DNA from: Sedimenticola hydrogenitrophicus
Lineage (GTDB): Bacteria; Pseudomonadota; Gammaproteobacteria; Chromatiales; Chromatiaceae
Assembly: GCF_025175675.1 (NCBI RefSeq)
Contig: NZ_JANIOA010000044.1
Location: forward strand, 1-35,182
DNA length: 35,182 nt
Direction of reading: 5' to 3'
A program made the translations under genes and the position numbers. The notes under the pieces were generated by a model. It was not told where the DNA came from. It searched no databases and saw only the letters and a program-made list of their open reading frames with translations. Of this stretch, positions 7,482 to 35,147 are shown piece after piece (within the stretch, counting starts at the first letter, position 1; each line of letters starts with the position of its first letter).

Positions 7482-7627
7482 GCTTTCGGGTGAGAGGATT
7501 CCAAGACCGTCGGCGGCAGGAGGAGTGGTACAGGGATGTACCGTTCACGCAGCCGAGGATGCATTGCCGCCACCGAGCCCCCAGGGATGGGTTTACGGCG
7601 TGTCTTGGAATCCTTTCGCCCGAAAGC
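7482..7627. repeat. Structured element with AGGGAT-loop hairpins, copy 1
   Basis: Arms of about 26 nt (7482-7507 and 7602-7627) pair with few mismatches and enclose a branched core. Hairpin 1 is GGCGGCA...TGCCGCC, with a nested GGTAC-AGGGAT-GTACC. Then come ACCGAGC, hairpin 2 CCC-AGGGAT-GGG, and TTTACGGCGTGTC leading back to the closing arm. The same order recurs at 35046-35147 with different arm sequences. On the minus strand it lies between the ferredoxin and GNAT genes, where it could act as a transcript end, attenuator or processing site. Confidence 0.75.
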
Positions 7628-7660
7628 TTTCCGCACAGCATCAGAATCTGACAAGTAGAA

Positions 7661-7903
7661 TCAGTGCAGCGTATCGTACTTCGCCTGCAGTTCGTCCCGG
7701 GTCTCCTCGAAATCCGGATTGGGCACAATGCAGTCCGGCGGGCAGACCAGCTGGCACTGCGGCTCGTCCTCGGCGCCGACGCACTCGGTACACTTCATCG
7801 GGTCGATAATGTACATCGGATCACCGGCGGTGATGGCGTCGTTCGGACACTCGGTCGGGCAGGCGTCACAGGCGGTGCAATCTTCGTTGATCATAAGGGC
7901 CAT
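7661..7903 (-). CDS. fdx: 2[4Fe-4S] ferredoxin, electron donor to benzoyl-CoA reductase
   Basis: This 80-residue ferredoxin has two cluster motifs: C9-x2-C12-x2-C15-x3-C19 and C38-x2-C41-x8-C50-x3-C54. The eight-residue insertion in the second motif and the C-terminal helical extension are the marks of the Allochromatium-type low-potential ferredoxins, the kind used by benzoyl-CoA reductase in Thauera. It would carry electrons from the 2-oxoglutarate:ferredoxin oxidoreductase (korAB, 15777-18379) to BcrCBAD. GGAG upstream of the ATG supports the start. It is the last gene of the had-oah-dch-bcrCBAD-fdx series, 26 bp after bcrD. The extra C58 is outside the usual ligand set. Confidence 0.93.
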   Translation of the reverse strand: MALMINEDCTACDACPTECPNDAITAGDPMYIIDPMKCTECVGAEDEPQCQLVCPPDCIVPNPDFEETRDELQAKYDTLH

Positions 7904-7929
7904 AGTATTCTCCTTACGTAAACAGTGGG

Positions 7930-8772
7930 TTAGGAAGCGATGGCCAGTGAGCCCTGCTCAGCCAGCTTGTCGTAGCGATAGGCACCCCAGATGGCGGCAC
8001 CGATGGCGCCGGCATAGGGTGAATCGGGGTGGTTCACCGCCTTGGTCGGAATCTTCATCTTGACCATGGAGGCGTTGATCGAATCCATCAGCCCCTCATC
8101 CAGCGCCAGGCCGCCACTGAGGAAGGTGACCCCTTCGTCGGCCTTGATCACGCGCAGCAGCTTTACCAGCCGACCCGCCATGGAGTCGTGGATACCGCGC
8201 AGGATATTGGGCGCGCTGATGCCGCGCGACACCATGTTGATGACGTCGGTCTCGGCCAGCACCGCGCAGATGCTGGAGACGTTCTCCGGGTCGTCCGCCT
8301 GCTTGGACAACTCGCCGATCTCGTTCTGGGCGATGCCCAGGTAGCGCGAGATGTTCTCCAGGAACTGACCCGAGCCGGAGGCGCACTGGCTGGTCATGCG
8401 ATAGGTCAGCACCTTGCCGTGCTCGTCCATCTTCACCGCGCGGCCGTTCAGGGCCCCCATGTCCAGCACCGAGCGGGACTCGGGGTTGAGGTAGATGGCG
8501 CCACGGGCGTGCGTGGTCATGGAGTAGAAGTGACCGGTCGAAAACTCGATGTTCTCGCCCTCGCCGGTGGTGGCGGTGTACTGGATATCGGCCTCGGTCA
8601 GGCCGGCCTCCTCGATCACCTCTTCGTAGGCGCGCCGCGCCAGCTCCATCGGGTCGCGCTGGCGGATCTTGTCGTTGCGGCGGGCGATCCATTCGATGTT
8701 GTCGCCGTCGACCTTGAACAGCACGGTCTTGATACAACCGGTTCCCACATCTATGCCAATACTTGTCGTCAT
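7930..8772 (-). CDS. bcrD: Benzoyl-CoA reductase, ATPase subunit D
   Basis: This 280-residue protein belongs to the BadF/BadG/BcrA/BcrD ATPase family of the ASKHA fold. BcrA and BcrD form the electron-activating module that hydrolyses two ATP per electron pair and holds a bridging [4Fe-4S] cluster. Visible motifs are the phosphate-binding SIGIDVGTGCIKTVLF at the N-terminus, the cluster cysteine in TSQCASGSGQFLENI, SSICAVLAETDVI, and the adenosine-binding FLSGGLALDEGL. Length matches Thauera BcrD. It starts 2 bp after the bcrA stop, with GAGGAGG upstream, so the two are translationally linked. Confidence 0.95.
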   Translation of the reverse strand: MTTSIGIDVGTGCIKTVLFKVDGDNIEWIARRNDKIRQRDPMELARRAYEEVIEEAGLTEADIQYTATTGEGENIEFSTGHFYSMTTHARGAIYLNPESRSVLDMGALNGRAVKMDEHGKVLTYRMTSQCASGSGQFLENISRYLGIAQNEIGELSKQADDPENVSSICAVLAETDVINMVSRGISAPNILRGIHDSMAGRLVKLLRVIKADEGVTFLSGGLALDEGLMDSINASMVKMKIPTKAVNHPDSPYAGAIGAAIWGAYRYDKLAEQGSLAIAS

Positions 8773-8774
8773 GG

Positions 8775-10094
8775 TTATGCCTCCTCAACGGCACGGCGGG
8801 CAAATTCCGCACCGCCCAGTGCACCGGTATAAATTGAATCCGGGTTGATATTGATCTGCACGTCGCCATAGTTCTCCTGAACCAGCTCGCGCAGCTGCTT
8901 GACCGCCGCCTCGTTCTTGGCCACACCCCCGGTGAAGGTGAACTCGTCGGTAATACCACCGGAGCGCGAGATGATGGACATGGCGCGCAGGATGATGGCG
9001 CGATGCAGTCCGGCCATGATGTCCTCGCGCTTCTCGCCCAGTGCCAGGCGGTCACGCAACTCGGCACCGGCAAATACGGTACAGGTGGAGTTGATGCGCA
9101 CCGTCTTGGTCGCCTTCATCGCCATCGGCCCCAGTTCATGCAGGCCGAGGTTCATCTCGTCGGCGATGTAGCCGAGGTAGCGTCCGCAACCGGCGGCACA
9201 GCGGTCGTTCATCTGGAAGTTGACCACGATACCCTTGCCATCGATCTGGATACCCTTGGTATCCTGCCCGCCGATATCCAGCACGGTACGGGTCTTGGGG
9301 TACATCAGGTGCGCGCCCAGGCCGTGACACAGAATCTCGGAACGGATGTGCTCCTTGGGGAACGGCAGGCGCACCCGGCCATAACCGGTACCGACCACAT
9401 AGGTCTCCTCCAGGTCCATGTCCAGGACGCTCTTGATCGCCTTCATCACGTCATCCGAACTGACGCTGAGGTCGGTCTCTTCCGCCAGCACGTTGGTCAG
9501 GGCGCGGAGGAATTTGCCTTCCATGTCGTCGTTCGGCGGACGATTCTCCACCTCGATGATCGACTTGTCGTAGATGTTGATCAGGGTATCGAAATTCATA
9601 CCCATCTCCTTCGCGGTCTGTTCGGCGATGTTCATATACTCGGAACCGGCCAGATCACGGAAGAAGTCCGACTTGCGCACCACGCCCGGCGCGAACAGCC
9701 CCTGCAGCTTTTCGCGCAGGCGGGCAAAGGCCACATCCAGCACCGCGCAGATCTTCGCCTTCTGCCCCGGGTAACGCAGGTCGCCGGCGTTACCCGCGCA
9801 GGTCTGGTGCAGATCTTCCAGCTGCTCCAGGAACAGCTCCAGGCGGAAGTGGCGCTCCAGGTTCAACAGCAGGCGGTCGATCTTCTCGCCCTCGAGGCCG
9901 GAGAGTCCTTCCAGCGCGCGATGAAACAGGGTCAGGCGTGTACTGATGAACGCCTCCAGTTTGGCCACGCGGCTGGCGGTATCGTAATTGGAGCGGGAGT
10001 TGGTGATACCGCGCCCCAGTACTTCGCCAAACTCATCCATCACCACGGCCTTGGTAGTGGTGGAACCCAGGTCAATGCCTATATAACACTTCAT
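8775..10094 (-). CDS. bcrA: Benzoyl-CoA reductase, ATPase subunit A
   Basis: This 439-residue ATPase subunit is the larger partner of BcrD. It starts with [20 protein letters not shown] (phosphate-1 motif). It carries the cluster-binding region [20 protein letters not shown] and [12 protein letters not shown], and an adenosine-type motif [12 protein letters not shown]. About 130 extra residues (roughly 50-200, including [20 protein letters not shown]) set it apart from BcrD. That long form is typical of the Thauera/Rhodopseudomonas Bcr/Bad class rather than of the Azoarcus Bzd class. The frame is open upstream to 10259, but the ATG at 10094 follows GAGGGGG and the start lies 13 bp after bcrB, so this start is preferred. 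Confidence 0.94.
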
Positions 10095-10107
10095 GCTCTG
10101 GCCCCCC

Positions 10108-11400
10108 TCAAGCGGTTCTGGTTGAACGACGTTTCTGGTCGACCATCTGGAAATAACTCTCCAGGCGGTTTTTGACGTTGGCCGCGGAGAAGTAACGCGG
10201 ATCCACCAGATCGGTCTCGATAAAGGCACCCGGCTTGCCGGTGCGTTTCTCAATTTCATTCATCATCATCAGCTGGCCGGCGGAGAAGCTGTTGCAGCTC
10301 TTGATGGAGTTGATGAGCAGACCGTCGGCCTGGTACTCATTCATGTATTTCTCGATCAGGTCGACACGGCTGGGCATGTTGCGGTTGGTGTAACAGCCCA
10401 GGCAGTAATCGGCCAGCGACTCCAGCGGGTTGGTCGGGTCATGGCGGAAACCCTCGTCATACACACCACCAACCTTGGTATAGGTGCTGGCCACGACCAC
10501 GGCGCCCTCGTCATAGAACATCTTCCAGAACTCGCGGAAGCTGGTCCAGTTGGGCGGACCCTCCACCACCAGGCGGTATTTCTCTTCGCCCATATCGCCT
10601 TCCGGGGTGACCGGACCCAGACCATCTTGCATCCGCTTCTCGATCTCGCCGCGCAGCAGCTGATAGTACTCGATGGCATCCTGGGTGCCGCGGAAGGCGG
10701 TGAAGATCGGGCCGATGTAGTAGACGCCGCCGAAGTAGGCGTCGATCGGTGAGCGCACATTCTTGGCACTCTCCAGCACCCACACCAGGTCATCCTCCGC
10801 CTTCGCGGAACGGGCCATGTTTTCCCGCAGCCGGTCGATATCGAACTTCACACCGGAAGTCTTCTCCAGTGCCGGAATCACCTCTTCCTTCAACTGTTTG
10901 ACCACGAAATTGCGCATGTTGTCGGTGATCACGCCATCGCCGGTATAGGGCACCTGCAGCATCACCGTGTCGCAGTTGTACTCCTTGCGCAGCAGCTCGA
11001 ACCACTTCATGAAGGTGAAGCAGCCGGTATAGGAGAGCAGCAGCAGATTGGGCGGCGGCATCACCTTGCCGTTGGGCGCGATGTTGCCCTTGGACATCAT
11101 GCCGATATCCGCCTTCACATAGGTGCAGACATCCTCGGAGTGGCCGCTGCGCTCGGCGTCCATGATCATGGCGCCACTCTGTTTGCGCATGCCGTTGTTG
11201 ATCGCATTGATCTCCGGCAGGTTGTTGAGCAGACCGAAACTGTTGATCAGTTCGTTCAGGTTGCCCGGCACGAAGGTGGAGACGATCTTCTTGCCGCTCT
11301 CGGGTGCGCCGGTCAGGGCATCGTAGTTGCGTGCGATCATCTCTTTCTGCTTGAGCATCGACGCGTCTTTGATGGCTTCCGGCTTGGTTGCGGTATTCAT
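10108..11400 (-). CDS. bcrB: Benzoyl-CoA reductase, substrate-binding subunit B
   Basis: This 430-residue protein belongs to the 2-hydroxyacyl-CoA dehydratase component family (FldB/FldC-like), which includes BcrB and BcrC. The BcrBC module binds benzoyl-CoA and [4Fe-4S] clusters and carries out the Birch-type reduction to cyclohexa-1,5-diene-1-carbonyl-CoA. Likely cluster cysteines are in [28 protein letters not shown] and [14 protein letters not shown]. The frame is open to 11487, but the ATG at 11400 follows a GGAG site and lies 7 bp from the end of bcrC. Length is close to the 438 residues I recall for Thauera BcrB. Confidence 0.94.
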
Positions 11401-11407
11401 AATGGTG

Positions 11408-12568
11408 TTAGCTCCACAGTTTGATCGAGTCGGCAAAGGTACCTGCCTGTTCACGGATCGGCTGCATCTGACCCGAGTTCTCTGCATACTTGAAGGAGAT
11501 GTGCGGTACGTTGTTTTCGCTCATCTTGGCCGACAGCAGCGGGCGTTCCAGCAGGGCCGGATCACAGAAGCTGGGGGCGGCGAAGATCACACCCTCGGCC
11601 TTGTTCTTGATCACCGAGTCGAGCAGGTACTGACCCACCTTCTCCTGGGTGTCGCAGTACTTGGCCGAGGAGTCGGCCGAGTGATGCAGGAAGGCATCGG
11701 CCAGGCTCTTGATCGGGTCGCCGTCGGTCGGCACCTCTTCCATCAGCCAGCGGTTGACCAGCATGTAGTCGTCGTCCACCACGTAGCAGCCGGCCATCTC
11801 GATCGACTTGATCAGGTTCAGCGGCGGCTGCTCACAGAACGAACCGCAGGTGATGATGCGGCATTTATCACGAATCGGTTTATCCTCTTTCACTACCGCT
11901 GCCAGGTACTCGTTCAGCATGACGATATGCTCTTCCACCGGAAGGACCTGCCCGGCACGCATCACCAGATAGACCTCTGAACTGGGCACCTTCCAGGGCT
12001 CGGCGGAACGCATGGCGTAGACATCGCGCACCAGTTGCCGGTGCTGGTTATAGATGGCAATGGAGTTGTTCAGCGCCTCATCGGTAATGGTGTTACCGGA
12101 GAGCTTCTCCATGTCGTGACGCAGTTCCTGCATCTCGTTCTGGTAGTAGGTGCCGCCGATATCGTCGCGGTAGTTCTGGGGCACATCGAAGTACTTGGCG
12201 TAGACGCCCGGCTTCATCAGCTTCCACATACCGGAGAGGTTGCGGATCACGTCGCAGATGCTGGGAAACAGCATGCCGTCGACAAAATCCAGCCGCCCGG
12301 TCAGTCCCAGTTCGATGGTGGAGCGGGGAATGCGGCAGATATAGCTCTGATAGAAGGCGTCGCCATGAATCACTTCCAGGTTGTCACCACCACCCAGGAT
12401 ACCCAGAGGCAGCATGCCGGCGGCATGAATGATCTCTTCCGGGATATAGACCGGCATGAACCCAACCACCTTGCGGCCGGGCACCGCCTCTTTCCAGGCA
12501 CGTGATGCGGCGAAGGTGGTATCTTCATACAACTCTTCACAGCGTGCGATTATCTCTGCAGTACTCAT
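11408..12568 (-). CDS. bcrC: Benzoyl-CoA reductase, substrate-binding subunit C
   Basis: This 386-residue partner of BcrB is in the same dehydratase-like family. Candidate cluster cysteines are in FYQSYICRIPRSTIELG, FPSICDVIRNLSG, ITCGSFCEQPPLNL and FAAPSFCDPALLERP. Blocks such as GFMPVYIPEEIIHAAGMLP are characteristic of the family. An ATG at 12586 would add six residues, but it sits in front of its own GGAGG. The ATG at 12568 has that GGGAGG about 9 nt upstream and lies 2 bp after the dch stop, so it is the better start. The order dch-bcrC-bcrB-bcrA-bcrD-fdx is that of Thauera aromatica. Confidence 0.94.
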   Translation of the reverse strand: MSTAEIIARCEELYEDTTFAASRAWKEAVPGRKVVGFMPVYIPEEIIHAAGMLPLGILGGGDNLEVIHGDAFYQSYICRIPRSTIELGLTGRLDFVDGMLFPSICDVIRNLSGMWKLMKPGVYAKYFDVPQNYRDDIGGTYYQNEMQELRHDMEKLSGNTITDEALNNSIAIYNQHRQLVRDVYAMRSAEPWKVPSSEVYLVMRAGQVLPVEEHIVMLNEYLAAVVKEDKPIRDKCRIITCGSFCEQPPLNLIKSIEMAGCYVVDDDYMLVNRWLMEEVPTDGDPIKSLADAFLHHSADSSAKYCDTQEKVGQYLLDSVIKNKAEGVIFAAPSFCDPALLERPLLSAKMSENNVPHISFKYAENSGQMQPIREQAGTFADSIKLWS

Positions 12569-12570
12569 GC

Positions 12571-13341
12571 TTAGCTGTCCTCCCATTTGGCTGGACGTTT
12601 CTCGATGAATGCATTCAAACCTTCTACAGCATCATGACTGGCCATCAGACCGTCCAGATAAAGGGCTTCAACGCTTGCCAGTTTGGCCTTGATACGCGCC
12701 ACCATGTCGCTCCGTACCGCCTGCACCGCGAAGCGCAGCGAGGAGGCCGAATGGGGCGCCAGAAATTTATCGAAATAGGCGATCGCCGCCGCCTGCGGGT
12801 CTGCCGCCAGCTGGTTGACCAGCCCCATGCGCAGGGCCTCGTCACTGTTCACGCTGCGACCGGAAAACAGCAAGTCCTCGGCATGCGCCTGACCGATGCG
12901 CTCCGGCAACAGACAGGAGGCGGCCGGGGCGAACACCGCCAACTGGATCTCCGGTTGGCCCATACGGGCGTCGCTCGCGGCAAACAGCTGGCTGCCGGCG
13001 GCGGCCACTTCCAGGCCGCCTCCCAGACACTGGCCCTGGATGGCGACCAGGATCGGCAGCGGGAAATCCAGCATGGTCTCGATCAGCCGGTGCAGTGAAC
13101 GCAGCATGCTGGCGCAACTGCCGGGCAGGTGCTCCTCCACGCTGGCGCCGAAGCTGAAGTGGGGACCTTCAGCGTCCAGCAGCACAGCGCGTAGCGCGGC
13201 CTGCCCGGCATATTGCTCGAAGGCCGTCTGCAGTGCGCCGATCATGGCGGCATCCACAATATTGGCCTTGGGTCGGTTAAGGCGCAGCCGCAGCAGCGCC
13301 CCGTCCCGGTCCAACCAAACCTTGAGCGGCGAATCGCTCAT
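12571..13341 (-). CDS. dch: Cyclohexa-1,5-diene-1-carbonyl-CoA hydratase
   Basis: This 256-residue crotonase-fold enzyme would add water to the dienoyl-CoA product of benzoyl-CoA reductase, giving 6-hydroxycyclohex-1-ene-1-carbonyl-CoA. Crotonase features are the N-terminal LRLNRPKANIVDAAMI, the first oxyanion-hole region HFSFGASVEEHLPG and the second, QGQCLGGGLEVAAAGS. The GASVEEHLP block is characteristic of Dch, BadK and related enzymes. It is placed between oah and bcrC with gaps of only a few bases. The specific substrate is inferred from context, but the context is strong. Confidence 0.92.
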   Translation of the reverse strand: MSDSPLKVWLDRDGALLRLRLNRPKANIVDAAMIGALQTAFEQYAGQAALRAVLLDAEGPHFSFGASVEEHLPGSCASMLRSLHRLIETMLDFPLPILVAIQGQCLGGGLEVAAAGSQLFAASDARMGQPEIQLAVFAPAASCLLPERIGQAHAEDLLFSGRSVNSDEALRMGLVNQLAADPQAAAIAYFDKFLAPHSASSLRFAVQAVRSDMVARIKAKLASVEALYLDGLMASHDAVEGLNAFIEKRPAKWEDS

Positions 13342-13344
13342 GCC

Positions 13345-14481
13345 TCAGTCCTCCCTGCCCGGCATCAGGCTCTCGATCAGCTCGGGAGTCCAGGGGGTCG
13401 CCTCGGCCAGGGCCTGGCGCAGGGCGACGAAGTCGATCTCGCGACCCACCTCGCGGTTGCCCTCATTGAAGGCGCGGAAGCCGGTGCGGGCCTCGTTCAT
13501 CATGTTCAGGGCCAGCCAGGCGCGGGAGTTCTCCTTGTTGCGGTTCCAGGCATCCAGCTTCGGCTTGCGCAGCTCTTCCAGACTCTTGGTCATGCACTCG
13601 GGGAAGGTCTCGAGCAGCTTGGCGCAGAGCTCCTCGACCGCCTGGTCGAGCAGGCTCAGATCGATCTCGCCCTGCTTGATCAGCGCCTTGGCCGCCTTGG
13701 CCGCTTCGCCGCTCTTGAATTCGCCATGCACGATGCGGCCGTACTCATCCAGCATCTGGTCGGTGACCGCCATCGGATTGGCGACAAATTTACCGTCCAG
13801 CTTCAGCGCCGGCACGATCTGCGAGACGATGCCGAGGCGATACGCCTTGTGTGCCGAGAAGGGTTCGCACAGGGTGCCGGAGACCATCGCCTGCTCGCAG
13901 CCGATCATCACCGGCAGAAAGTCGGTAGCGCCGCCGATGGCCGCGGAACCGTGCTTGGGACCGGCCTGGCCGAAGTTGGCCAGATCCTGGGCTACCGAGT
14001 AGTCCGCCGCCATGCCGATCTCCTGGCCGCCGCCGATACGCATGCCGTTGACCCGGCAGATCACCGGTTTGTCACAGCCCAGCATGGCGCTCACCATGTC
14101 GTTGAACAGGCGCATGTACTGGCGGTACTCCTGCGGATTGCCGGCGTAGTACTCGGCGTACTCCTTGGTGTTGCCACCGGTACAGAACGCCTTGTCGCCG
14201 GCGCCGGTGAACACCACGGCATTGACATCGCGGGCGCAGCTGGCGGCGCGGAAGGCGAGGATCACGCCCTTCACCATCTCGGTGGTGTAGGAGTTGTACT
14301 GGGCCGGATTGTTCAGGGTGATCCACAGATTGTAGAGCCCTTCCGCCACGCTGCCGTCACGACGTTTGGCGGGCCGCTTCTCCACCAGCAGGCCCTCAAA
14401 GCTGAGCTCCGGCACCAGGTTGTGGTCGACCACGGCGGCCGGCTTGGAATCGTTGATAATGCTGCGCGTTGAATCTCTCAT
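13345..14481 (-). CDS. oah: 6-oxocyclohex-1-ene-1-carbonyl-CoA hydrolase (ring opening)
   Basis: This 378-residue member of the crotonase superfamily is longer than ordinary enoyl-CoA hydratases, as is usual for Oah/BamA. It adds two waters to 6-oxocyclohex-1-ene-1-carbonyl-CoA and cleaves the ring to 3-hydroxypimeloyl-CoA. Visible blocks are FTGAGDKAFCTGGNTKEYAE (first oxyanion hole), CRVNGMRIGGGQEIGMAADY (second) and FGQAGPKHGSAAIGGATDFL. The last two are highly conserved in BamA, a diagnostic marker of anaerobic aromatic degraders. The ATG at 14481 follows AAAGGGG; an in-frame ATG at 14520 lies inside had and is rejected. It ends 3 bp before dch. Confidence 0.95.
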   Translation of the reverse strand: MRDSTRSIINDSKPAAVVDHNLVPELSFEGLLVEKRPAKRRDGSVAEGLYNLWITLNNPAQYNSYTTEMVKGVILAFRAASCARDVNAVVFTGAGDKAFCTGGNTKEYAEYYAGNPQEYRQYMRLFNDMVSAMLGCDKPVICRVNGMRIGGGQEIGMAADYSVAQDLANFGQAGPKHGSAAIGGATDFLPVMIGCEQAMVSGTLCEPFSAHKAYRLGIVSQIVPALKLDGKFVANPMAVTDQMLDEYGRIVHGEFKSGEAAKAAKALIKQGEIDLSLLDQAVEELCAKLLETFPECMTKSLEELRKPKLDAWNRNKENSRAWLALNMMNEARTGFRAFNEGNREVGREIDFVALRQALAEATPWTPELIESLMPGRED

Positions 14482-14494
14482 GAAAACGTCCCCT

Positions 14495-15568
14495 TTAAAG
14501 ATTCGGAACCAGAATGGCACGCTCGGTCAGAAGGTGGCCCTTGGCCGCTTCGAACACCGCGTTGATATCGTTGAGTGGATGAAGTTTTACGAACGGCTTC
14601 ATCTGGATCTTGTTCTGCAGCACCAGATCAAGCGCCTTGGGATAGTATTCCGGCAGACAGCCCCAGTTGCCCTGCAGGCGGGCGCTGAAGGCCATCAGGT
14701 TGGAGAGCCGCAGCTCCAGCTTGGCCATGGTGAAACCGACCACCGCCAGGTGCGATCCGTAGGTCAGCAGGCTGAAGGCGGTCTCCTGGCCGGGCGTCGA
14801 GCCGGAGCACTCGAATATCCTCCACTCGGTGGCGCGCAGGCCGTTTGCCTTCACATGCGCCTTGATCAGTTGCTTGATGGCGCGGGCGTCATGCTCCTTG
14901 GCATTCAGGGTCAGCTCGGCACCGAAATCCTTCAGCTGGTCCAGCTTCGCCTGATCCACATCGATGGCCACCACATGGGCGCCCATGGCGTGGGCGATCT
15001 GCACCGCGTAACCACCGACACCGCCGACACCGATCACGATGGCCAGGTCGCCCTCGTTGATCCCGGCCAGCAGCGCTGCCTGATAGGGTGTGGTCACCGC
15101 GTCCGCCAGCACCGCCACCTCGGCCAGGCTCATGCCGGCCGCCTCCAGCTGTTTCTCATCCACCGGACAGAGTCCGCGGGCCGGCACGGTGATATGGCTG
15201 GCAAAGCCGCCCTGGATATCGTTGCCGGGCATCTTCTGACCGCGGCACAGGGTGCCCAGACCGCGTTGGCAGAGGTCGCACTCGCCACAGGGCATCACCG
15301 CCGGGATCACCACCGCCTTGCCCAGCAGCCCCTCGGCACCTTCACCGCAGGCCACCACCCGGCCGCTGATCTCATGACCCAGGGTGAGGGGCAGTTCATG
15401 ATTGGTACGGACACCGTCATAAAGAAAGCCGAGATCGGTATGACAGACACCACAACCGGCCACTTCCACCGTGACTTCACCGGCAACCGGTGTTTCGAAG
15501 CTGCAATCCTCTTTAACGAAAGGCGCTCCCACTGCGGTCATCTGCCAACGGTATCCGTTAATACTCAT
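14495..15568 (-). CDS. had: 6-hydroxycyclohex-1-ene-1-carbonyl-CoA dehydrogenase
   Basis: This 357-residue zinc-type medium-chain alcohol dehydrogenase would oxidise the 6-hydroxy intermediate with NAD. Catalytic zinc ligands appear as C39 in AGCGVCHTD and H65-E66 in LGHE. The structural zinc site is C94, C97, C100, C108 in [16 protein letters not shown]. The Rossmann motif is [20 protein letters not shown]. The gene opens the had-oah-dch-bcrCBAD-fdx operon, with GGAG upstream of the ATG and a strong promoter at 15620-15647. Length and neighbours match Thauera Had. Confidence 0.94.
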
Positions 15569-15616
15569 AGTCTGTGGTCTCCAAAATTCTTATTTCACGC
15601 ACTAATGCTGTGACAA

Positions 15617-27700: not shown

Positions 27701-27715
27701 CGGGAGAACAGATTA

Positions 27716-29047
27716 ATGACCGCCTATAACACCATCGCCTTCGATCCGTCACGCTGCGAGCTGTGCAATGACTGTGATGCCTGCATCACCGCCTGCGCCC
27801 AGGTTAAGTCGGGCAGCGACGACCCGCTGCACTCGCGCATCAAGATCGTCGCCGGCTTCAACGGTAACCCTCCGGAACTGGCGCTGTGCCGCCAGTGCGG
27901 CGACCCGGAGTGCGTCAAGAGCTGCCCCTCCACCGCGCTGACCAAAAACCCGGATACCGGCCTGATCGACTGGGAGAAAAGCCTCTGCGTCGACTGCCTG
28001 CTCTGTACCGTCGGCTGCAGCTACGGCGGCATCACCTACAATGCGACACTGCAGCATGTCGCCAAGTGCGACCTGTGCGACGGCGACCCGGCCTGTGTCA
28101 AGGCGTGCCCGAGCGGGGCGCTCAGTTACATCACCTCGGCCAGCATCTTCAACGAGCAACACGAACGCGAGGATCTGTTCGTGCCCGGGCTCTCCGCCTG
28201 TCAGGGCTGCAACTCCGAGATGATCATGCGCCACTCGCTGCGCAAGGTGGGCCCGGATACCGTCCTGGCCACCCCGCCCGGCTGCATACCCGGCATGGGC
28301 TCGGTTGGTTTCAATGGCACCACCGGCACCAAGGTCCCGGTGTTCCATCCGCTGCTGACCAATACCGCCTCGATGCTGGCCGGTCTGAAGAAACAGTACA
28401 ACCGCATGGGCCGCAACGTCACCGCCATGGCGTTGGCCGGCGATGGCGGCGCCGGCGATGTGGGCTTCCAGTCGCTCTCCGGCGCGGCGGAACGCAATGA
28501 CCAGATCCTGTTTATCTGTGTTGACAACGAAGGCTACATGAACACCGGCATGCAGGCGTCCGGCAGCACTTCCTACGGCTCCTGGACCACCACCACGCCG
28601 GTCGGCAGCGAAATGAAAGGCAAGCGTACCAGCCAGAAAAACCTGGCCATGATCATGATGAACCACAACTGCGAGTATGTGGCCACCGCCTCCACCGCTT
28701 TCGTGGAGGACTATTATGAAAAACTGGACAAGGCGCTGGCCGCCTCCGAGCGCGGCTTCGCCTATCTGCACATCTACTCGCCCTGCCCCACCGGCTGGCG
28801 CTTCCCCTCGTCGCAGACTATCGAGGTGTGCCGCAAGGGCGTGGAGACCAACTTTGCTCCCTTGTGGGAGTATGAACGGGGCGGTGACCTGCACTTCACC
28901 CACCCCATCGACAACCCCCTGCCGGTAGAGGCCTACCTGAACCTGAGTGGCAAGTACCGCCATGTCAATGAGGAGCAGCTGGCTTGCATCCAGCAGCAAG
29001 TCAATGAGCGGGTAAGGACCCTCAAACGCTATGCCGGACTTAATTAG
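27716..29047 (+). CDS. padI: Phenylglyoxylate dehydrogenase, beta subunit fused to ferredoxin domain
   Basis: This 443-residue protein has two parts. Residues 1-140 form a cysteine-rich HydN-like domain with several cluster motifs: CELCNDCDACITAC at 14-27, then CRQCGDPECVKSCP, CVDCLLCTVGC and CDLCDGDPACVKACP. From about residue 155 it is a thiamine diphosphate beta subunit with CQGCNSEMIMRHSLRKVGPD, LAGDGGAGDVGFQSLSGA and VDNEGYMNTGMQASGSTS. The fused ferredoxin domain is the mark of PadI against ordinary PorB or KorB, and would link the thiamine site to PadH. It follows padH by 15 bp and closes the tightly packed operon. Confidence 0.9.
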   Translation: MTAYNTIAFDPSRCELCNDCDACITACAQVKSGSDDPLHSRIKIVAGFNGNPPELALCRQCGDPECVKSCPSTALTKNPDTGLIDWEKSLCVDCLLCTVGCSYGGITYNATLQHVAKCDLCDGDPACVKACPSGALSYITSASIFNEQHEREDLFVPGLSACQGCNSEMIMRHSLRKVGPDTVLATPPGCIPGMGSVGFNGTTGTKVPVFHPLLTNTASMLAGLKKQYNRMGRNVTAMALAGDGGAGDVGFQSLSGAAERNDQILFICVDNEGYMNTGMQASGSTSYGSWTTTTPVGSEMKGKRTSQKNLAMIMMNHNCEYVATASTAFVEDYYEKLDKALAASERGFAYLHIYSPCPTGWRFPSSQTIEVCRKGVETNFAPLWEYERGGDLHFTHPIDNPLPVEAYLNLSGKYRHVNEEQLACIQQQVNERVRTLKRYAGLN

Positions 29048-29051
29048 AGAC

Positions 29052-29195
29052 AAGGTGTCGGAGTCAAATTTATCCCAAGCTAAGGTGTCGGAGTCAGATT
29101 CATCCATCGCTATGGGTTGCGCTATACCCTATCGAGGAATCTGACTCCGACACCTGATCGAGTTTACCCTGTCGAAGAATTTGACTCCGACACCT
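29052..29195. repeat. GGTGTCGGAGTC palindrome, two nested copies
   Basis: The outer arms AAGGTGTCGGAGTCAAATTT (from 29052) and AATTTGACTCCGACACCT (to 29195) enclose an inner pair: AAGGTGTCGGAGTCAGATTC (from 29082) and GAATCTGACTCCGACACCT (to 29155). The inner arms differ from the outer by G instead of A and C instead of T at several places, yet stay fully complementary. One element seems to sit inside another. Further copies are at 30545-30619 and 30902-30976. Confidence 0.85.
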
Positions 29196-29229
29196 GATGA
29201 TGAAAACAAATATAGAGGAGTGTGACACC

Positions 29230-30540
29230 ATGTCGAATACTGGTGCCGATAATTACTATTATGATGCCGAAGCCGAGTGCATGCCACGCGGGCAACTTTT
29301 GCAACTGCAGTTGCAGCGTCTGAAGACGCGCCTGCAGCACGCCTATGACAACGTACCGCACTACCGGGCGGTATTCGATGCCCAGGGGGTGAAACCGCAC
29401 GACCTGGAGCGCCTGGAGGATCTGGCCAAGTTTCCCTTCACGGTGAAGAACGATCTGCGCGACGCCTACCCGTTCAACATGTTCGCCGTGCCCCGGGAGC
29501 AGGTCTCGCGGCTGCACGCCTCCTCCGGCACCACCGGCAAGCCGACCGTGGTCGGCTACACCGAGGGCGACATCAACAACTGGGCCGACCTGATGGCGCG
29601 CAGCCTCTCCTGCGCCGGCGCCCGCCCCGGCGACATCGTGCACAACGCCTATGGCTACGGCCTGTTCACCGGCGGGCTGGGTGCCCACTATGGCGCCGAG
29701 CGGCTGAAGTGCACCGTCACCCCGATGTCCGGCGGCAACACCGAGAAGCAGATCGCGGTGATGAGCGACTTCGGCTCCCACGTGCTGCTCTCCACCCCCT
29801 CCTACGCCCTCAACATCGCCGAGGTAGCAAGAAATGAAGGGGTGGACCTGGCGGCCGGCCCGCTGCGTGTGGGCGTGTTCGGGGCCGAGCCCTGGAGCGA
29901 CGAGATCCGCGGCGAGCTGGAGAAGCAGCTCGGCATCAAGGCGATGGATATCTACGGCCTGTCCGAGATCATGGGCCCCGGCGTGGCCTGTGAATGCGCC
30001 GAGCAGAACGGCCTGCACGGCTGGGAGGATCACTTCCTGTTCGAAATCATCGATCCCGACACCCTGCAGCCGCTGCCCTACGGCGAGGCGGGCGAACTGG
30101 TGATCACCACCCTGACCAAGGAGGCGCTGCCGATCATCCGCTACCGCACCCATGACATCACCAAGCTCAGCGCAGAGCCCTGCGCCTGCGGCCGCTCCCA
30201 CGTACGCATCCTGCGGGTCACCGGGCGCAACGACGACATGATGATCATCCGCGGCGTCAACGTCTATCCGTCGCAGATCGAGTCGGTGCTGGTGGGCATC
30301 AACGGCGTCGCCCCCCACTACCAGTTGGTGATCCGGCGCGAAGGGATACTCGACACCCTGACCGTGGATATCGAGGCGGAGCCCGATTTCGGCGGCGACA
30401 AACAGGCGCTTGGCGCCGAGGTGAAGCACCACATCAAATCGCTGATCGGCGTCACCTGCACGGTCAACGTGCTGGAGACCGGCGCGGTGCCGCGTTCCCA
30501 GGGCAAGGCGGTGCGGGTACGCGATCTGCGCAAGAAGTGA
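29230..30540 (+). CDS. paaK: Phenylacetate-CoA ligase
   Basis: This 436-residue adenylate-forming enzyme is of the PaaK family. It turns phenylacetate, ATP and CoA into phenylacetyl-CoA, the substrate of PadBCD. The phosphate-binding loop is SSGTTGKPTVVGYT (S98 to K104). Other family blocks are YGYGLFTGGLGAHYGAERLK, YGLSEIMGPGVACEC, ITTLTKEALPIIRYRT and RNDDMMIIRGVNVYPSQIES. Benzoate-CoA ligases of the BadA/BzdA type are about 520 residues, so this is not one of them. The ATG at 29230 follows GAGGAG; an in-frame ATG at 29197 lies next to the repeat and lacks a ribosome site. Palindromic repeats flank it on both sides. Confidence 0.93.
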   Translation: MSNTGADNYYYDAEAECMPRGQLLQLQLQRLKTRLQHAYDNVPHYRAVFDAQGVKPHDLERLEDLAKFPFTVKNDLRDAYPFNMFAVPREQVSRLHASSGTTGKPTVVGYTEGDINNWADLMARSLSCAGARPGDIVHNAYGYGLFTGGLGAHYGAERLKCTVTPMSGGNTEKQIAVMSDFGSHVLLSTPSYALNIAEVARNEGVDLAAGPLRVGVFGAEPWSDEIRGELEKQLGIKAMDIYGLSEIMGPGVACECAEQNGLHGWEDHFLFEIIDPDTLQPLPYGEAGELVITTLTKEALPIIRYRTHDITKLSAEPCACGRSHVRILRVTGRNDDMMIIRGVNVYPSQIESVLVGINGVAPHYQLVIRREGILDTLTVDIEAEPDFGGDKQALGAEVKHHIKSLIGVTCTVNVLETGAVPRSQGKAVRVRDLRKK

Positions 30541-30544
30541 AGAC

Positions 30545-30619
30545 AAGGTGTCGGAGTCAAATTTATCGAATGCTTTCAGTTGCGAAGCACCATGTCGAAA
30601 AATTTGACTCCGACACCTG
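30545..30619. repeat. GGTGTCGGAGTC palindrome, copy 3
   Basis: AAGGTGTCGGAGTCAAATTT and AAATTTGACTCCGACACCT bracket a ~35 bp centre. It begins a few bases after the paaK stop and ends 25 bp before the small four-cysteine gene. It could end or stabilise the paaK transcript. Confidence 0.85.
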
Positions 30620-30643
30620 GAAGGAAAACGTGAGGAGATGATC

Positions 30644-30850
30644 GTGGGCTTTTGCAACGACTGCAGTCACTGGCGCTTCGAGCTGAACGTCACGCTGCGA
30701 AACGAACATGAACAGGATGGCTTCGGCCTCTGCGAGCTGTTCGAGCAGATGCGCGCCAACCCGTTGCGCGCCCTGGTGCGTAGCGATGACGAATTCGCCG
30801 AGATCCAGACCCGCGGCGAGTTCGGCTGCAGCCTGTTCGAGCAGAAGTAG
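30644..30850 (+). CDS. Small four-cysteine protein, unknown
   Basis: I do not recognise a named family. Starting at the GTG at 30644, which has AGGAG six bases upstream, it gives 68 residues; the ATG at 30638 abuts that AGGAG and is a poorer start. Four cysteines stand out: C4 and C7 in MGFCNDCSHW, C30 in FGLCELFEQ and C62 in GEFGCSLFEQK. The spacing suggests one metal site (zinc or iron, rubredoxin- or zinc-ribbon-like). It lies between paaK and the aldehyde oxidoreductase, with palindromic repeats on both sides. A role as a small electron carrier or maturation factor is only a guess. Confidence 0.6.
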   Translation: MGFCNDCSHWRFELNVTLRNEHEQDGFGLCELFEQMRANPLRALVRSDDEFAEIQTRGEFGCSLFEQK

Positions 30851-30901
30851 TGATTACCGCACGCGGCGTCCACGGCCCGCAGGCCGCTGGTCGGTAAAGC
30901 C

Positions 30902-30976
30902 AAGGTGTCGGAGTCAAATTTTTTCGGCAATGTGGGTCGCAATTGCATGTATTCGGTAAATTTGACTCCGACACCT
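30902..30976. repeat. GGTGTCGGAGTC palindrome, copy 4
   Basis: AAGGTGTCGGAGTCAAATTT and AAATTTGACTCCGACACCT are separated by ~37 bp unlike the centre of the other copies. It is in the gap 30851-31204, which holds no gene but also contains the palindromes at 31110-31138 and 31156-31186. Confidence 0.85.
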
Positions 30977-31109
30977 GATGAAAGAGTGAAGAAATATACA
31001 GGGCTGCCGGCAAAGGGAGCAACACAGGGAGTGGGCGTGACAGACAGCGGATGACTGGACACGCCCGACCCGCCTGCAACGACAGTGGCCGGTGCAGGAC
31101 AAAAAACAG

Positions 31110-31138
31110 GTAGGGTGGACAAGCGCAGCGCATCCACC
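31110..31138. repeat. Short palindrome GTAGGGTGGA...TCCACC
   Basis: This is an inverted copy of 5474-5503 in the leader of the aldehyde oxidoreductase gene. Confidence 0.6.
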
Positions 31139-31155
31139 GGAAAGATCATATCGGA

Positions 31156-31186
31156 GCAGGCGGTGTCGGAGCCGACACCCGCCTGC
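31156..31186 (+). promoter_or_regulatory. Hairpin in the leader of the aldehyde oxidoreductase gene
   Basis: GCAGGCGGTGTCGG and CCGACACCCGCCTGC pair almost perfectly (one bulged C) around two bases. The hairpin ends about 5 bp before the A-rich AAAAGGA ribosome-binding site of the gene at 31205. It has no T run, so it is not a typical terminator. It could affect translation or message stability, or be a compact relative of the GGTGTCGGAG repeats. Confidence 0.45.
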
Positions 31187-31204
31187 CGGACAAAAGGAAC
31201 CACT

Positions 31205-33529
31205 ATGAGCATCAGAGACCGTATCGACGCCCTGCTGGAACGCATGCCGGATGCCCCCCAGTATCCCACCCAGGGCGCCGTCCTGTTTGTGGATCTGGAG
31301 CGGCGCAGCCAGCGCAAGGCCTACCTGCCGAAGGAGGTGCTGACCACCTTCCTCAGCGGTCGCGGCGGTAATATGTTCCTGCTCTACAACCTGCTCTCCG
31401 GCGACAACGTGAAACCACTCGATCCCGAAGTTCCGCTGATTTTCGGCAGCGGGGTCTTTACCGGCTACATGGCCTCCGCCACCCGCGGCAACGTCACCAG
31501 CCTCTCCCCGGAGAGCGACGCCATCCTCGACAGCAATGCCGGCGACTACTTCCCCGCCTTCATGCGTCACCACGGTTATGACCACCTGGTGCTGTATGGA
31601 CGCAACCCCCAGTGGACCCTGCTGAAGATCTCTTTCGAAGAGGTGCAGTTTCTGGACGCCACCCCCTACCTGGGAATGGATAACCTGGATATCACCGAAG
31701 CCATCCAACGCGATTTCGAACGTACTGAACGCAAGGACATGGCACTGGCGCGCATCACCAGCGCCGGCGAAAACCAGGTGCTCAGCTCCGGCATCATGGG
31801 CGGCATCAAGGCGATCTGGGCACGCGGTGGCGCCGGCGCCAAGATGGGCTCGCTGGGGCTGAAGGCGATCATGATCGACGGCGCGCCGGGCAAGATCGTC
31901 TCCTCTCGGGAGTTCAAGCTGGGCGCCAAGGAGATCAGCAACAAGGTGATCGGCACCAGCGTGATCCACAATGCCCTGAAGACCGTCGGCACTCCGTTCC
32001 TGTACAAGCCGAGCCGTATCCTCGGCGCCATCGGCACCAAGAACAACCAGGAGAATACCTGGGTCGAGGATCTGGACGCCGACAACTTCGATGTCTACCG
32101 CACCGGCATGGATGGCTGCTACAAATGCCCGGTGAAGTGCCGGCCACTCAACGACATGACCCCCGGGGCCACCGGCGGCTTCGGCGCCAATGCATTGAAA
32201 GGTGTTACCGGCAATGCCAGCTACGACACCGCCCAGGCCGAGGTACAGCATGAACATCGCGCCGGCTATCGGGGCATCAAGGGCAATGGCGTGTTCGACC
32301 GCTACGACAAGGGCGACGGCCCGGAGTATGTCACCGTCGGCAAGTTCGGCCCCAACATCGGCATAAAAGAACCGGAGCAGGTGCTGCGTCTGAACAACAT
32401 CCTCAACGACCTGGGGCTCGACTCCTCCGGCACCGGCGGCGCCATCGGCTGGGCCATGGAACTGTATCAGCGCGGCATTATCGACCAAACCACCACGGGC
32501 GGCCTGGACCTGAGCTGGGGCAACTACGCGGTGGTGGAGAAACTGCTGTTCATGCTGGCCAAACGCGAAGGCTTCGGCGACGTGCTGGCCGACTCCAGCC
32601 AGGCAGTCGCCACCGGCAAATATCCGAAGGAAGCATTGGACTACCGCATGACGGTCAAGGGGCTGTTCCAGTCCGATCCCCACGACAGCCGCATCCTCAA
32701 GGCGTTTGCCCTGGGCCTGGCGGTGGCCACCCGCGGCATGGACCACCTGCGTAACCGGGTGACCCTGGAGATCAACGCCCGCATCAATGACGACGCCGAG
32801 TTCAAGACCGCCCTGTATGGCGGCCAGGTGTCGGCCGAACCCAATCAGTACAGCGGCAAGGAGTACGCGGTACGTCGCTGCGAGGACACCTTTGCGGTCG
32901 GTGACTCGGTGGGTATGTGCCGCTTCACCACCAAGCTGTTCAACTCCCCGTCGCTCACCGGCACCGAGGAGTTTGCCGTGCAGCTCAAGCTGCTGACCGG
33001 GATCGACATGAGCAGCGACGACCTGCTCAACAGCGGCCGCAACGTGATCGCCGTGGAGCGCATGATCAATGCCATCCGCGGCCTCGGCGACGTCGATGAC
33101 ACCCTGCCCCGGCGCTGGTTCGAGGAGCCCAACAGCGCCGGCCCGTTCAGCGGCGAGAAGATCGATCCGCAGGCGTTCGCGGAGCTGAAATTGCGCTTCT
33201 ACGAGATCTCCGGGTTTGAACCGGACGGCCTGCCCGGCAGCGACTGGTGGGAGCGGCTCTCCCAGGTGCTGACCGGCTACAGCCTGAAGGTGCAACTGCC
33301 GGAGCTGCCCGGAGTGAAACGCCACAGCCTGGTCATCAACCGGCCGGTGAGGAATATCCAGGAGCTGAGACAACGCCTGATCAGCAGCCTGCCGCAGGCG
33401 GCCGAGGCGCTGCAGGACAGCTCGTTCGGCATTTCCATTAACGATCAACTGGTGGTCGCCTCGGAACAGGGGCTGGCCCTGCACAATGGCGACCAGGTGA
33501 GCCTGGTGCCGATGTTGGCGGGAGGGTAG
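31205..33529 (+). CDS. aor: Tungsten-type aldehyde oxidoreductase with C-terminal MoaD-like domain
   Basis: This 774-residue protein belongs to the aldehyde ferredoxin oxidoreductase (AOR) family, tungstopterin and [4Fe-4S] enzymes that oxidise aldehydes to acids. Cluster cysteines are C305, C308 and C312 in DGCYKCPVKCRP and C572 in DSVGMCRF, the P. furiosus AOR pattern. The N-terminal domain includes GRGGNMFLLYNLL and RGGAGAKMGSLGLKA. From about residue 697 a ubiquitin-fold MoaD/ThiS-like domain follows, ending in NGDQVSLVPMLAGG with the Gly-Gly tail at the very C-terminus. The likely role here is oxidation of phenylacetaldehyde or benzaldehyde. In Aromatoleum, AOR has partner subunits for electron transfer that are not seen nearby. 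AAAAGGA supports the ATG at 31205 over the open frame from 31085. Confidence 0.88.
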   Translation: MSIRDRIDALLERMPDAPQYPTQGAVLFVDLERRSQRKAYLPKEVLTTFLSGRGGNMFLLYNLLSGDNVKPLDPEVPLIFGSGVFTGYMASATRGNVTSLSPESDAILDSNAGDYFPAFMRHHGYDHLVLYGRNPQWTLLKISFEEVQFLDATPYLGMDNLDITEAIQRDFERTERKDMALARITSAGENQVLSSGIMGGIKAIWARGGAGAKMGSLGLKAIMIDGAPGKIVSSREFKLGAKEISNKVIGTSVIHNALKTVGTPFLYKPSRILGAIGTKNNQENTWVEDLDADNFDVYRTGMDGCYKCPVKCRPLNDMTPGATGGFGANALKGVTGNASYDTAQAEVQHEHRAGYRGIKGNGVFDRYDKGDGPEYVTVGKFGPNIGIKEPEQVLRLNNILNDLGLDSSGTGGAIGWAMELYQRGIIDQTTTGGLDLSWGNYAVVEKLLFMLAKREGFGDVLADSSQAVATGKYPKEALDYRMTVKGLFQSDPHDSRILKAFALGLAVATRGMDHLRNRVTLEINARINDDAEFKTALYGGQVSAEPNQYSGKEYAVRRCEDTFAVGDSVGMCRFTTKLFNSPSLTGTEEFAVQLKLLTGIDMSSDDLLNSGRNVIAVERMINAIRGLGDVDDTLPRRWFEEPNSAGPFSGEKIDPQAFAELKLRFYEISGFEPDGLPGSDWWERLSQVLTGYSLKVQLPELPGVKRHSLVINRPVRNIQELRQRLISSLPQAAEALQDSSFGISINDQLVVASEQGLALHNGDQVSLVPMLAGG

Positions 33530-33533
33530 CTAA

Positions 33534-33693
33534 GGACCCGCGCAAGAATAAGTTCCTGTATTCGGTCGCCCCTGGACCCCGCTGGCGGCGTTACGCTTTT
33601 TGCCAAGGGAACAGCCATTGCCTGCAAAGCGTGCCTTGCCAGCGTGGCCCAGGAACGCCCTCGGTACTACGGAATTATTCTTGCGCGGGCCCT
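33534..33693. repeat. Long imperfect palindrome (160 bp)
   Basis: GGACCCGCGCAAGAATAA (33534) pairs with TTATTCTTGCGCGGGCCCT (33693). The interior also pairs imperfectly along its length (GGTCGCCCCTGGACCCCGCTGG against CCAGCGTGGCCCAGGAACGCCC). Transcribed, it would be a single long hairpin. It lies directly after the aldehyde oxidoreductase gene and may end or protect its message. No second copy is in the window. Confidence 0.7.
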
Positions 33694-33783
33694 AAGAGAG
33701 AGAGAAAGCGCGTGTGGAAAAGGTACAAATATCAGTATCATGTTAATATCAGGCAGGAGAGGAGACCAATAGGAACGTGACGC

Positions 33784-34677
33784 ATGACTGAGATCGTCAA
33801 CTCCCCCGCGGGGGAAGAGGTAAGCATTGAGGAGCTGACCGAAGTGGTCGGGGCGCGGGTACGCTCGGTACGCTCACGGCGTGGTCTGACGCGCAAAAAC
33901 CTCGCCTTTCATTCAGACGTCTCAGAGCGTTACCTGGCCCAGCTGGAGCGTGGCACCGCCAACGTCTCACTGGCCCTGTTGTCGCGGATCGCCAAGGCCC
34001 TCGGGGTGCGGATCGGCTCACTGCTGCCGGAGCAGGAGGAGAGCTGCATCAAGTACCCGCCGCTGGGCGAGTTGATCGAGACCTTCACGCCCGAGGCACA
34101 GGAGAAGGCGTTCCAGCTGTTGCGCAACGCCTTTTCGCCGGGCCAGGGGGCCTATCGCGGCATCGCCCTGATCGGGCTGCGCGGCGGTGGCAAGAGCACC
34201 CTCGGTGAGCGGCTGGCGAAGCATTTTCAGGTGCCGTTCATTCGCATGCAGAACGTGATCGCGCAACTGGCGGGGATGGACATGGGCGAGCTGATCTCCC
34301 TCACCGGCCAGGGCAACTACCGCCGGCTGGAGCTGCAGGCACTGCAGCAGACCATCACCGACTACCGGCACGTGGTGCTGGAGACCGGCGGCAGTCTGAT
34401 CTCCGAGGCGGAGACCTTCCGGGTGCTGCGCGAGAACTTCTACACCGTCTGGGTGCGCGCCTTGCCGGAGGATCACATGAACCGTGTCATCGAGCAGGGT
34501 GACATGCGTCCCATGGCCGGCAACCAGCAGGCGATGGATGACCTGAAACTGATACTGGACGAACGTGAAGCGGATTACCGCCTGGCCAATTTCGAGATCC
34601 TGACCTCGGGCCAGACCATCGAGCAGAGTCTCGAAGTGCTGATCAAGCAGTGCGCGCCCTATCTGCAGGGCGGCTGA
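33784..34677 (+). CDS. bzdR: BzdR/BoxR-like regulator (XRE domain plus shikimate kinase-like domain)
   Basis: This 297-residue protein has the unusual BzdR/BoxR architecture. An XRE-type helix-turn-helix covers about residues 20-85 (RVRSVRSRRGLTRKNLAFHS, then SERYLAQLERGTANVSL). A linker leads to a shikimate kinase-like domain from about residue 120, with the Walker A motif LIGLRGGGKSTLGERLA. BzdR is a repressor that senses benzoyl-CoA through the kinase-like domain in Azoarcus; BoxR does the same for the aerobic box pathway. Length matches BzdR (298). AGGA 9 nt upstream supports the ATG. It is the only visible regulator of this type, so it probably controls the bcr, kor or pad promoters. BzdR and BoxR cannot be told apart by eye. 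Confidence 0.88.
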   Translation: MTEIVNSPAGEEVSIEELTEVVGARVRSVRSRRGLTRKNLAFHSDVSERYLAQLERGTANVSLALLSRIAKALGVRIGSLLPEQEESCIKYPPLGELIETFTPEAQEKAFQLLRNAFSPGQGAYRGIALIGLRGGGKSTLGERLAKHFQVPFIRMQNVIAQLAGMDMGELISLTGQGNYRRLELQALQQTITDYRHVVLETGGSLISEAETFRVLRENFYTVWVRALPEDHMNRVIEQGDMRPMAGNQQAMDDLKLILDEREADYRLANFEILTSGQTIEQSLEVLIKQCAPYLQGG

Positions 34678-34694
34678 ACGTTCGTTGCTCCATG

Positions 34695-34725
34695 CGGCCG
34701 GCCCTGCCGGCCGTCCCTACCTTTT
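34695..34725 (+). terminator. Possible terminator after bzdR
   Basis: CGGCCGGC-CCT-GCCGGCCG is a perfect 8 bp stem with a three-base loop, 18 bp after the stop. It is followed by pyrimidine-rich GTCCCTACCTTTT rather than an immediate T run, so its strength is uncertain. Confidence 0.45.
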
Positions 34726-34755
34726 CCCGCACTTTTTTATAACTCAAGTTTCGGG

Positions 34756-34962
34756 GTAACTACTCACGGGGTGATTGGCCTGCCTTGTCGGCCTCACACG
34801 ATGGCTTGCCTCCTCGAATCCGGCCCCTTTTTCAGCGCCTGCCCAAACTCGCTTCGCTCAAACATGGGCAGGCTTGAATCTGAAAAAGGGGCCGGATTTG
34901 AGGCGCCATCAAGATCGGCCAACAAGGCAGGTCAATCACTTACAGACCGAGTGAGTAGTTAC
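34756..34962. repeat. GTAACTACTC palindromic element, long form, copy 3 (inverted)
   Basis: Ends are GTAACTACTCAC and GTGAGTAGTTAC. It is the long form found at 19041-19236 in reverse orientation, with the same nested hairpin, here TCCGGCCCCTTTTTCAG with CTGAAAAAGGGGCCGGA. The A-T pair of the other copy is replaced by C-G, keeping the stem. Confidence 0.82.
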
Positions 34963-35045
34963 GTTTCGGCGTTCATTTCACATCCGTAGGGTGTGAAAAT
35001 GAACAGTTAGTTTATCTGGTTTCGGAGTTCAAAAGTCGTCGTTCA

Positions 35046-35147
35046 GGGCGGGCCACCCCCTTTCCGGGACCGTCGGAGGCAGGGATGCCGACGCCGAGCG
35101 TACAGGGATGTATTAATAGCGTGTCCCGGGAAGGGGGTGGCACGCCC
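35046..35147. repeat. Structured element with AGGGAT-loop hairpins, copy 2
   Basis: Arms 35046-35070 and 35123-35147 (GGGCGGGCCACCCCCTTTCC with GGAAGGGGGTGGCACGCCC) enclose a core with two hairpins, GGC-AGGGAT-GCC and TAC-AGGGAT-GTA, separated by GACGCCGAGCG and followed by TTAATAGCGTGTC. The order matches 7482-7627, but arms and stems have different sequences. Weaker pairing may extend to about 35021-35173, up to the window's end. Confidence 0.75.

Follow-up and report, generated by a model that had tools for sequence, protein, structure and literature searches.

In our study, a repeat family (element E) has been delineated from two copies in a stretch of 35,182 nucleotides, referred to as the window, which is contig NZ_JANIOA010000044.1 of the gammaproteobacterium Sedimenticola hydrogenitrophicus. 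The element folds on one preferred strand, its head carries two hexaloops that both match the pattern C-ANGGAN-G (closing C-G pair, N variable) with their GGA motifs about 20 nt apart, and it is dispersed between genes in many gammaproteobacterial genera. These features make E a candidate for a mobile, bivalent CsrA-binding RNA module, a reading to which we assign a probability of about one half. CsrA is a global regulator, and sponge RNAs set its free amount. If this reading is true, E would represent a new route for transposable DNA to rewire or titrate a global RNA-binding protein. Dispersed palindromic repeats and CsrA-type hairpins are each already known kinds; their combination, and any paper on the E family, was not found in the open-licence text of PubMed Central (PMC), figures and preprints being outside that scope.

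E is about 110 nt long. A closing helix of around 25 bp, variable in sequence and ended by GAC/GTC, carries two hairpins on top, and the head has the fixed frame GACCGT-hairpin 1-CGAGC-hairpin 2-GCGTGTC. Both window copies are on the + strand and have this frame in common; their arm sequences differ, yet pair. In copy 1 (7480-7629) the 5' arm (7480-7504) pairs with the 3' arm (7605-7629), and the head is formed by the conserved entry GACCGT (7505-7510), hairpin 1 (7511-7571), the CGAGC linker (7574-7578), hairpin 2 (CCCC-AGGGAT-GGG, 7578-7592) and the conserved exit GCGTGTC (7598-7604). Copy 2 (35046-35148) has GACCGT at 35068-35073, hairpin 1 at 35074-35093, hairpin 2 at 35099-35112 and GCGTGTC at 35119-35125. 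An earlier sequence-only reading of this DNA had described this common layout correctly, whereas its four AGGGAT hairpins stand in part. The octamer CAGGGATG occurs four times in the window, always within the two copies (7531-7538, 7582-7589, 35080-35087 and 35103-35110), but the GGTAC/GTACC stem belongs to a separate repeat, M. Likewise, hairpin 1 was found as described in copy 2, while in copy 1 it is not simple, its loop being interrupted by the insert M of about 45 nt. The octamer by itself proves nothing, because window shuffles contain it 1.97 times on average and at least four times in 14 of 100 cases.

A search pattern that fixed hairpin 2 as CAGGGATG and left hairpin 1 free gave 169 rows in the fetched loci, from which 41 were dropped (no 5' partner, or running off the end) and 13 more because of arms shorter than 12 bp, leaving 115 copies. 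Six cores longer than 66 nt were excluded from alignment and spacing, and 73 of the other 109 were kept as non-redundant; the covariance model R1 was built from these 73 (alignment A1). R1 matches copy 1, which is outside A1, at 7495-7614 (73.8 bits, E-value 2.2e-13) and copy 2, which is part of A1, at 35058-35135 (87.6 bits, E-value 1.6e-16). GACCGT was found in 124 of 128 extracted cores. The CGAGC linker is invariant in A1, though the search pattern itself fixed it. The arms have a median length of 25 bp with quartiles of 23-28 (n=115), and this clustering indicates that the length of E is set although arm sequences differ. In Stenotrophomonas maltophilia D457, 34 distinct 26-nt 5' arms were counted among 38 copies from 20 stretches, and the GAC/GTC pair may change jointly (GGG/CCC in 15, GAG/CTC in 3 and AAC/GTT in 1 of the 38).

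The + strand folds of both copies were found to be more stable than 200 of 200 shuffles (z -7.75 for copy 1 and -5.39 for copy 2). As stated earlier, the closing arms are unlike in sequence and still complementary. Across the R1 structure 91.7% of cells are paired against 65.7% in shuffles, the covariation score is 0.645 against 0.153 (reached by 0 of 500 shuffles), and 524 double changes are seen across pairs against 152.5. The - strand also folds, less well (z -6.32 and -4.02). Moreover, G-U pairs in the arms outnumber A-C mismatches by 105 to 13 (p 5e-19), by 38 to 5 in arms outside the seed and by 32 to 7 in S. maltophilia. A palindrome acting as double-stranded DNA would show no such strand preference; hence selection for folding acts on the GGA-bearing strand, either as RNA or as single-stranded DNA (ssDNA). 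Selection on a folded single strand, as proposed from the sequence alone, is supported by the covariation and by this G-U excess.

The loops point to CsrA/RsmA. Among the 115 copies, which were selected on hairpin 2 and not on the loop of hairpin 1, GGA is present in hairpin 1 of 111, preceded by G, T, A or C and followed by T, C, A or G. Model matches outside the seed pattern have GGA in hairpin 1 of 57 and in hairpin 2 of 56 of the 58 that could be parsed (5 of 63 could not), R1 favouring the seed N letters as much as GGA. In D457, GGA is kept in 38/38 copies for hairpin 2 and 37/38 for hairpin 1, and the N letters of hairpin 2 vary (CAGGGACG in 11, CAGGGATG in 8, CATGGACG and CATGGATG in 5 each, CAAGGACG in 4, plus five others). 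The two GGA motifs are separated by 20 nt in 83 of 108 copies and by 19-22 nt in 105. According to PMC7652899 and PMC3791407, the CsrA consensus from systematic evolution of ligands by exponential enrichment (SELEX) is RUACARGGAUGU with loops of six nt, and RsmE is described as contacting ANGGAN with variable N. PMC7652899 also gives 10 to 63 nt as the distance between sites that CsrA can bridge, with an optimum above 18, so that the spacing in E lies inside the bridging range of the dimer. The E loops are therefore regarded as candidate CsrA/RsmA-type hairpin sites, a role which the earlier reading had not named when it left the choice between a structured RNA, an RNA-processing site and a mobile hairpin substrate.

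As RNA, the GGA-bearing strand would fold into one extended hairpin, whose Y-shaped head offers two hexaloops that a CsrA/RsmA dimer could bridge. Transcripts running through an E copy may then bind CsrA; the bound copies could titrate the protein as a dispersed sponge, or alternatively recruit CsrA to transcript 3' ends and alter decay or read-through. The sponge RNAs CsrB, CsrC and RsmX/Y/Z and the CsrA-binding mRNA leaders resemble E in having several GGA hairpins with a six-nt ANGGAN loop. These are, however, single-locus small RNAs or 5' leaders, whereas E is a dispersed repeat, and unlike CsrB/RsmZ-type RNAs it is closed by a long helix of variable sequence and has two hairpins in a fixed arrangement as its head.

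The dispersal of E is considerable. At E-value <=0.01, R1 gave 33 matches in the S. hydrogenitrophicus genome and 52 in the congener G006, and none in seven other congeners; a pattern search of the own genome gave seven matches, six being E and one coding DNA on inspection. In the gammaproteobacterial class sample E was found in 71/369 genomes and 64/272 genera (R1, E-value <=1e-5). Hosts among the matches listed in a pattern search include Shewanella, Halopseudomonas, Xanthomonas, Stenotrophomonas, Alteromonas, Marinobacter, Microbulbifer, Zobellella, Oceanisphaera and Rheinheimera. The phylum sample had E in 28/398 genomes, all labelled as the same class, the share of other classes among the 398 not being listed. 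Twelve candidates per genome were scored in the class sample and 11 in the phylum sample, so that copy numbers there are lower bounds. The pattern search of hosts gave at least 120 stretches, some of which (L067, L095, L175), like the own-genome locus L004, resemble chance matches in coding DNA. A covariance search had been set beforehand as the test of the sequence-only reading; many further copies were found with their stems still complementary, and the impression of similar sequences in other gammaproteobacteria is supported.

Viral contigs had no exact match to a strict E pattern, and one 62-nt E copy, used as a blastn query, matched nothing in plasmids or phages, which is weak evidence given the variability of E. 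No Rfam family matched E at its gathering score; at E-value <=10 there were eight matches, all far below gathering scores and none to a Csr/Rsm family, and the best of them, MIR8670 (23.7 bits, its gathering score being 150), was taken as chance. Whichever reading holds, an element of this breadth lying below Rfam thresholds merits a name and a model. Among the host matches listed in the pattern search, one E copy (L134) is on a metagenome-assembled contig labelled Klebsiella pneumoniae, where mislabelling or contamination seems likely.

E copies were intergenic in 70 of 71 cases, and our own gene calling placed these 70 between convergent (28), codirectional (37) or divergent (5) genes. Close neighbouring copies are mostly inverted, with 34 -+, 8 +-, 1 -- and 1 ++ arrangements (n=44), and in D457, with 99 copies listed, all 31 close pairs are -+. 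Owing to this inversion, one GGA-bearing copy would be present per transcript in either direction. By eye, no shared promoter was seen in the S. maltophilia spacers. Tandem arrangements were also observed, namely an array of six E matches in one orientation about 227 bp apart (G575, C1 94431-95645) and, in genome G742 (L321, L327, L331), E within longer tandem repeats, spaced by about 480-990 bp, where the intergenic DNA extends over at least 1 kb; L321 and L327 had no Rfam match at gathering score.

The host genomes were also compared for CsrA (a PF02599 match), the lists being compared by hand. The own genome has one match (3.2e-25). Among good-quality genomes (>=90% complete, <=5% contaminated) CsrA is absent in 1/58 with E and 33/256 without E (Fisher p 0.009), a difference which reduced genomes may confound.

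Several observations weigh against the CsrA reading. The chief one is antisense orientation, which speaks against E acting as RNA within the adjoining mRNA: there is no sense bias, codirectional copies being 17 sense and 20 antisense; in G742, 18/26 copies run antisense to the genes on either side and 4/26 run sense; and within -+ pairs the copy nearest the stop codon is often antisense. Over all 369 genomes the CsrA difference is 5/71 against 51/298 (p 0.04), where small genomes may lack both, and one E-bearing genome that is 98% complete (G228) has no CsrA match, while G095 and G332 of the same family have one. The stems of E are long and stable, and SELEX hairpins are mostly of <=4 bp (PMC7652899), whereas the hairpin 1 stems of E are often longer. 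GGA conservation by itself does not identify the protein. As for the fold, one covariation measure is weak, since 19 pairs show a double change where shuffles average 18.0 (19 being reached in 32 of 500), and the arms were chosen for complementarity and are hence biased toward it. Finally, the fold and its strand, the loop pattern and spacing, the dispersal and the placement between genes are established, whereas transcription of the GGA strand, its binding by CsrA and an effect of that binding are presumed here from sequence patterns. A wider proposal is more doubtful than the module itself: in much of the gammaproteobacteria, E may constitute a mobile post-transcriptional network with tens to about 100 bivalent CsrA sites per genome, spread by miniature inverted-repeat transposable elements (MITEs) and inverted duplication together with the loop-nesting GGA modules of M, and acting as a genome-wide sponge or wiring CsrA to many transcript ends.

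It is unlikely, though the strand-specific fold would suit it, that E serves as an ssDNA hairpin for a mobilising nuclease (of HUH type or other), as repetitive extragenic palindromes (REPs) do for RAYT, with loops that are DNA contacts and have no RNA role. The inverted close pairs resemble bacterial interspersed mosaic elements (BIMEs), and the intergenic placement with avoidance of divergent promoters is also seen in the multi-copy REP/BIME palindromes with their head-to-head pairs. In G742, moreover, a division of the halves at 2.2 Mb leaves 22 of the 28 listed copies oriented with replication (p 0.006). This bias is not independent, as the copies lie in tandem clusters (14/21 by cluster, hand count) and the terminus by GC skew is nearer 2.0 Mb; in S. 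maltophilia single copies no replichore bias is seen (11/10 and 7/9, p 0.74), and a lagging-strand bias of E is doubtful. At the Y1_Tnp loci examined (20 of 47 matches from one search and all 16 from another) 0/36 had a credible E, the sole match reaching 14.6 bits (E-value 0.34), and genome G271 carries at least 12 E copies and no Y1_Tnp match. RAYT/TIRYT as the mobiliser, and with it the Y1 form of the mobile hairpin substrate suggested earlier, is therefore unsupported at these loci. E is also much longer than a REP, with two hairpins, a foot of GACCGT/GCGTGTC rather than GTAG, and no Y1 gene adjoining it at the loci examined. If the loops serve ssDNA mobility after all, E would be a class-wide hairpin element whose nuclease is not known.

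The TIRYT long inverted repeats of S. maltophilia (Di Nocera 2013, PMC3733652; strain D457 included) share with E the host, the self-complementarity and the close pairs. In D457, however, a Y1 transposase gene (L360) is flanked by self-complementary GGGGTCAGATCC... repeats and not by E; their motif fits GGGGWSAS of PMC3733652, and they probably represent the TIRYT repeat described there. This GGGGTCAGATCC... sequence was also observed between E pairs. All five Y1 loci of this strain are without credible E, and identity of E with the inverted repeat of open reading frame 1152 (PMC3733652) was rejected as the D457 loci carry another repeat there. CGTC-tagged REPs have one stem of 8-9 bp and a loop of 4-5 bp and are mostly alphaproteobacterial (PMC3733652); CGTC occurs at the foot of hairpin 1 (GACCGTC) in many E copies, but the base after CGT varies.

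E could also be a structured RNA of another role, such as a processing site, a stabiliser of mRNA 3' ends or an antisense blocker between convergent genes, whose GGA loops bind a partner other than CsrA or make tertiary contacts. The frequent convergent and rare divergent sites agree with such a role, and by eye E-free relatives have other hairpins at the same gene end, which E or its MITE replaces here. Retention of GGA and the closing C-G while both N vary is left unexplained by it, and we regard this option as quite unlikely.

The carriers of E bear on its mobility. Within the genus E sits inside two MITE families with unrelated ends. The right end of a family A MITE, AATCTGACAAGTAGAA, lies at 7645-7661 (+ strand) beside copy 1 and touches the stop codon of a - strand gene (7661-7894), the left end being unrecognisable. 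Copy 2 is carried by a family B MITE at approximately 35018-35174 (no strand assigned; ends TTTCGGAGTTCA / TGAGCTCCGAA). A 4-bp target duplication was found in 6/11 copies of family A (TTCTACTTTGTCAG), and 5-bp duplications were seen by eye for family B (ACTCAAGTTTCGGAGTTCA) in L184, L193, L197, L203, L257 and L028. Genome G006 has a 61-bp family B copy without E and without its inner arms, which implies that E can be separated from its carrier, whether by gain or by loss. G012 has two further carriers of E, and in other species E occurs without known MITE ends. At the copy 1 site six congeners have no E, the intergenic DNA being too diverged for a clean join. Terminal repeats and target duplications are shared by these carriers with the bacterial MITEs ERIC, Correia and QMITE; unlike those, E is a core common to MITEs with unrelated ends. 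Such carriage, with the E-free family B copy, would also be expected if E had no host function and were a MITE passenger kept by common descent. This is improbable, since neutral decay would not keep GGA, the pairing and the excess of G-U over A-C across dozens of genera. The weakest reading, that E is an intrinsic terminator, as a long GC-rich hairpin close to gene ends might suggest, was rejected as most improbable: a U-run after the 3' arm (at least five T in 8 nt) is missing in 115/115 copies, and at least five A precede the 5' arm in 6/115.

The window has a further palindromic MITE-like repeat at 34756-34962 (GTAACTACTCAC...GTGAGTAGTTAC), which seems to split a family B end (AACTCAAGTTTCGG, ~34741).

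The insert M of copy 1 (about 7519-7563, + strand, ends approximate) has its own ANGGAN hairpin and further GGA motifs, and window 7516-7567 also recurs by itself elsewhere. Its 19-nt hairpin has 116 own-genome matches at <=1 mismatch, and, as in the E loops, the N letters vary most: 22 of the 33 listed single-mismatch variants hit the two N positions among the 19 (hand count). In the M loci examined (L268-L297 plus L252, L255 and L258), M reads GAGGAGTGGTACANGGANGTACCGTTTACGGA...AGGATG and is nested in ANGGAN loops of M itself (three levels in L287), of E hairpin 1 and of other repeats. M is enclosed by a stem of at least 8 bp in 17/30 loci against 93/1025 controls, a 5-bp stem test being useless (28/30 against 357/514). 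Orientation to genes is mixed (10 ++, 8 --, 8 +- and 3 -+; n=29). A different repeat whose loop is of this type, GTCCAGGGATGGACTTATGCCGCG-AGGCC...GGCCGGGAGCGGC, was also observed to host M (L272, L276, L278, L283, L258). By eye, a larger module takes the place of hairpin 1 of E at L069, L083, L111, L124, L166, L169 and L173; it occurs in both orientations and contains TGCAGGAGC together with GCCATGGATGGC or the complement of GCCATGGATGGC.

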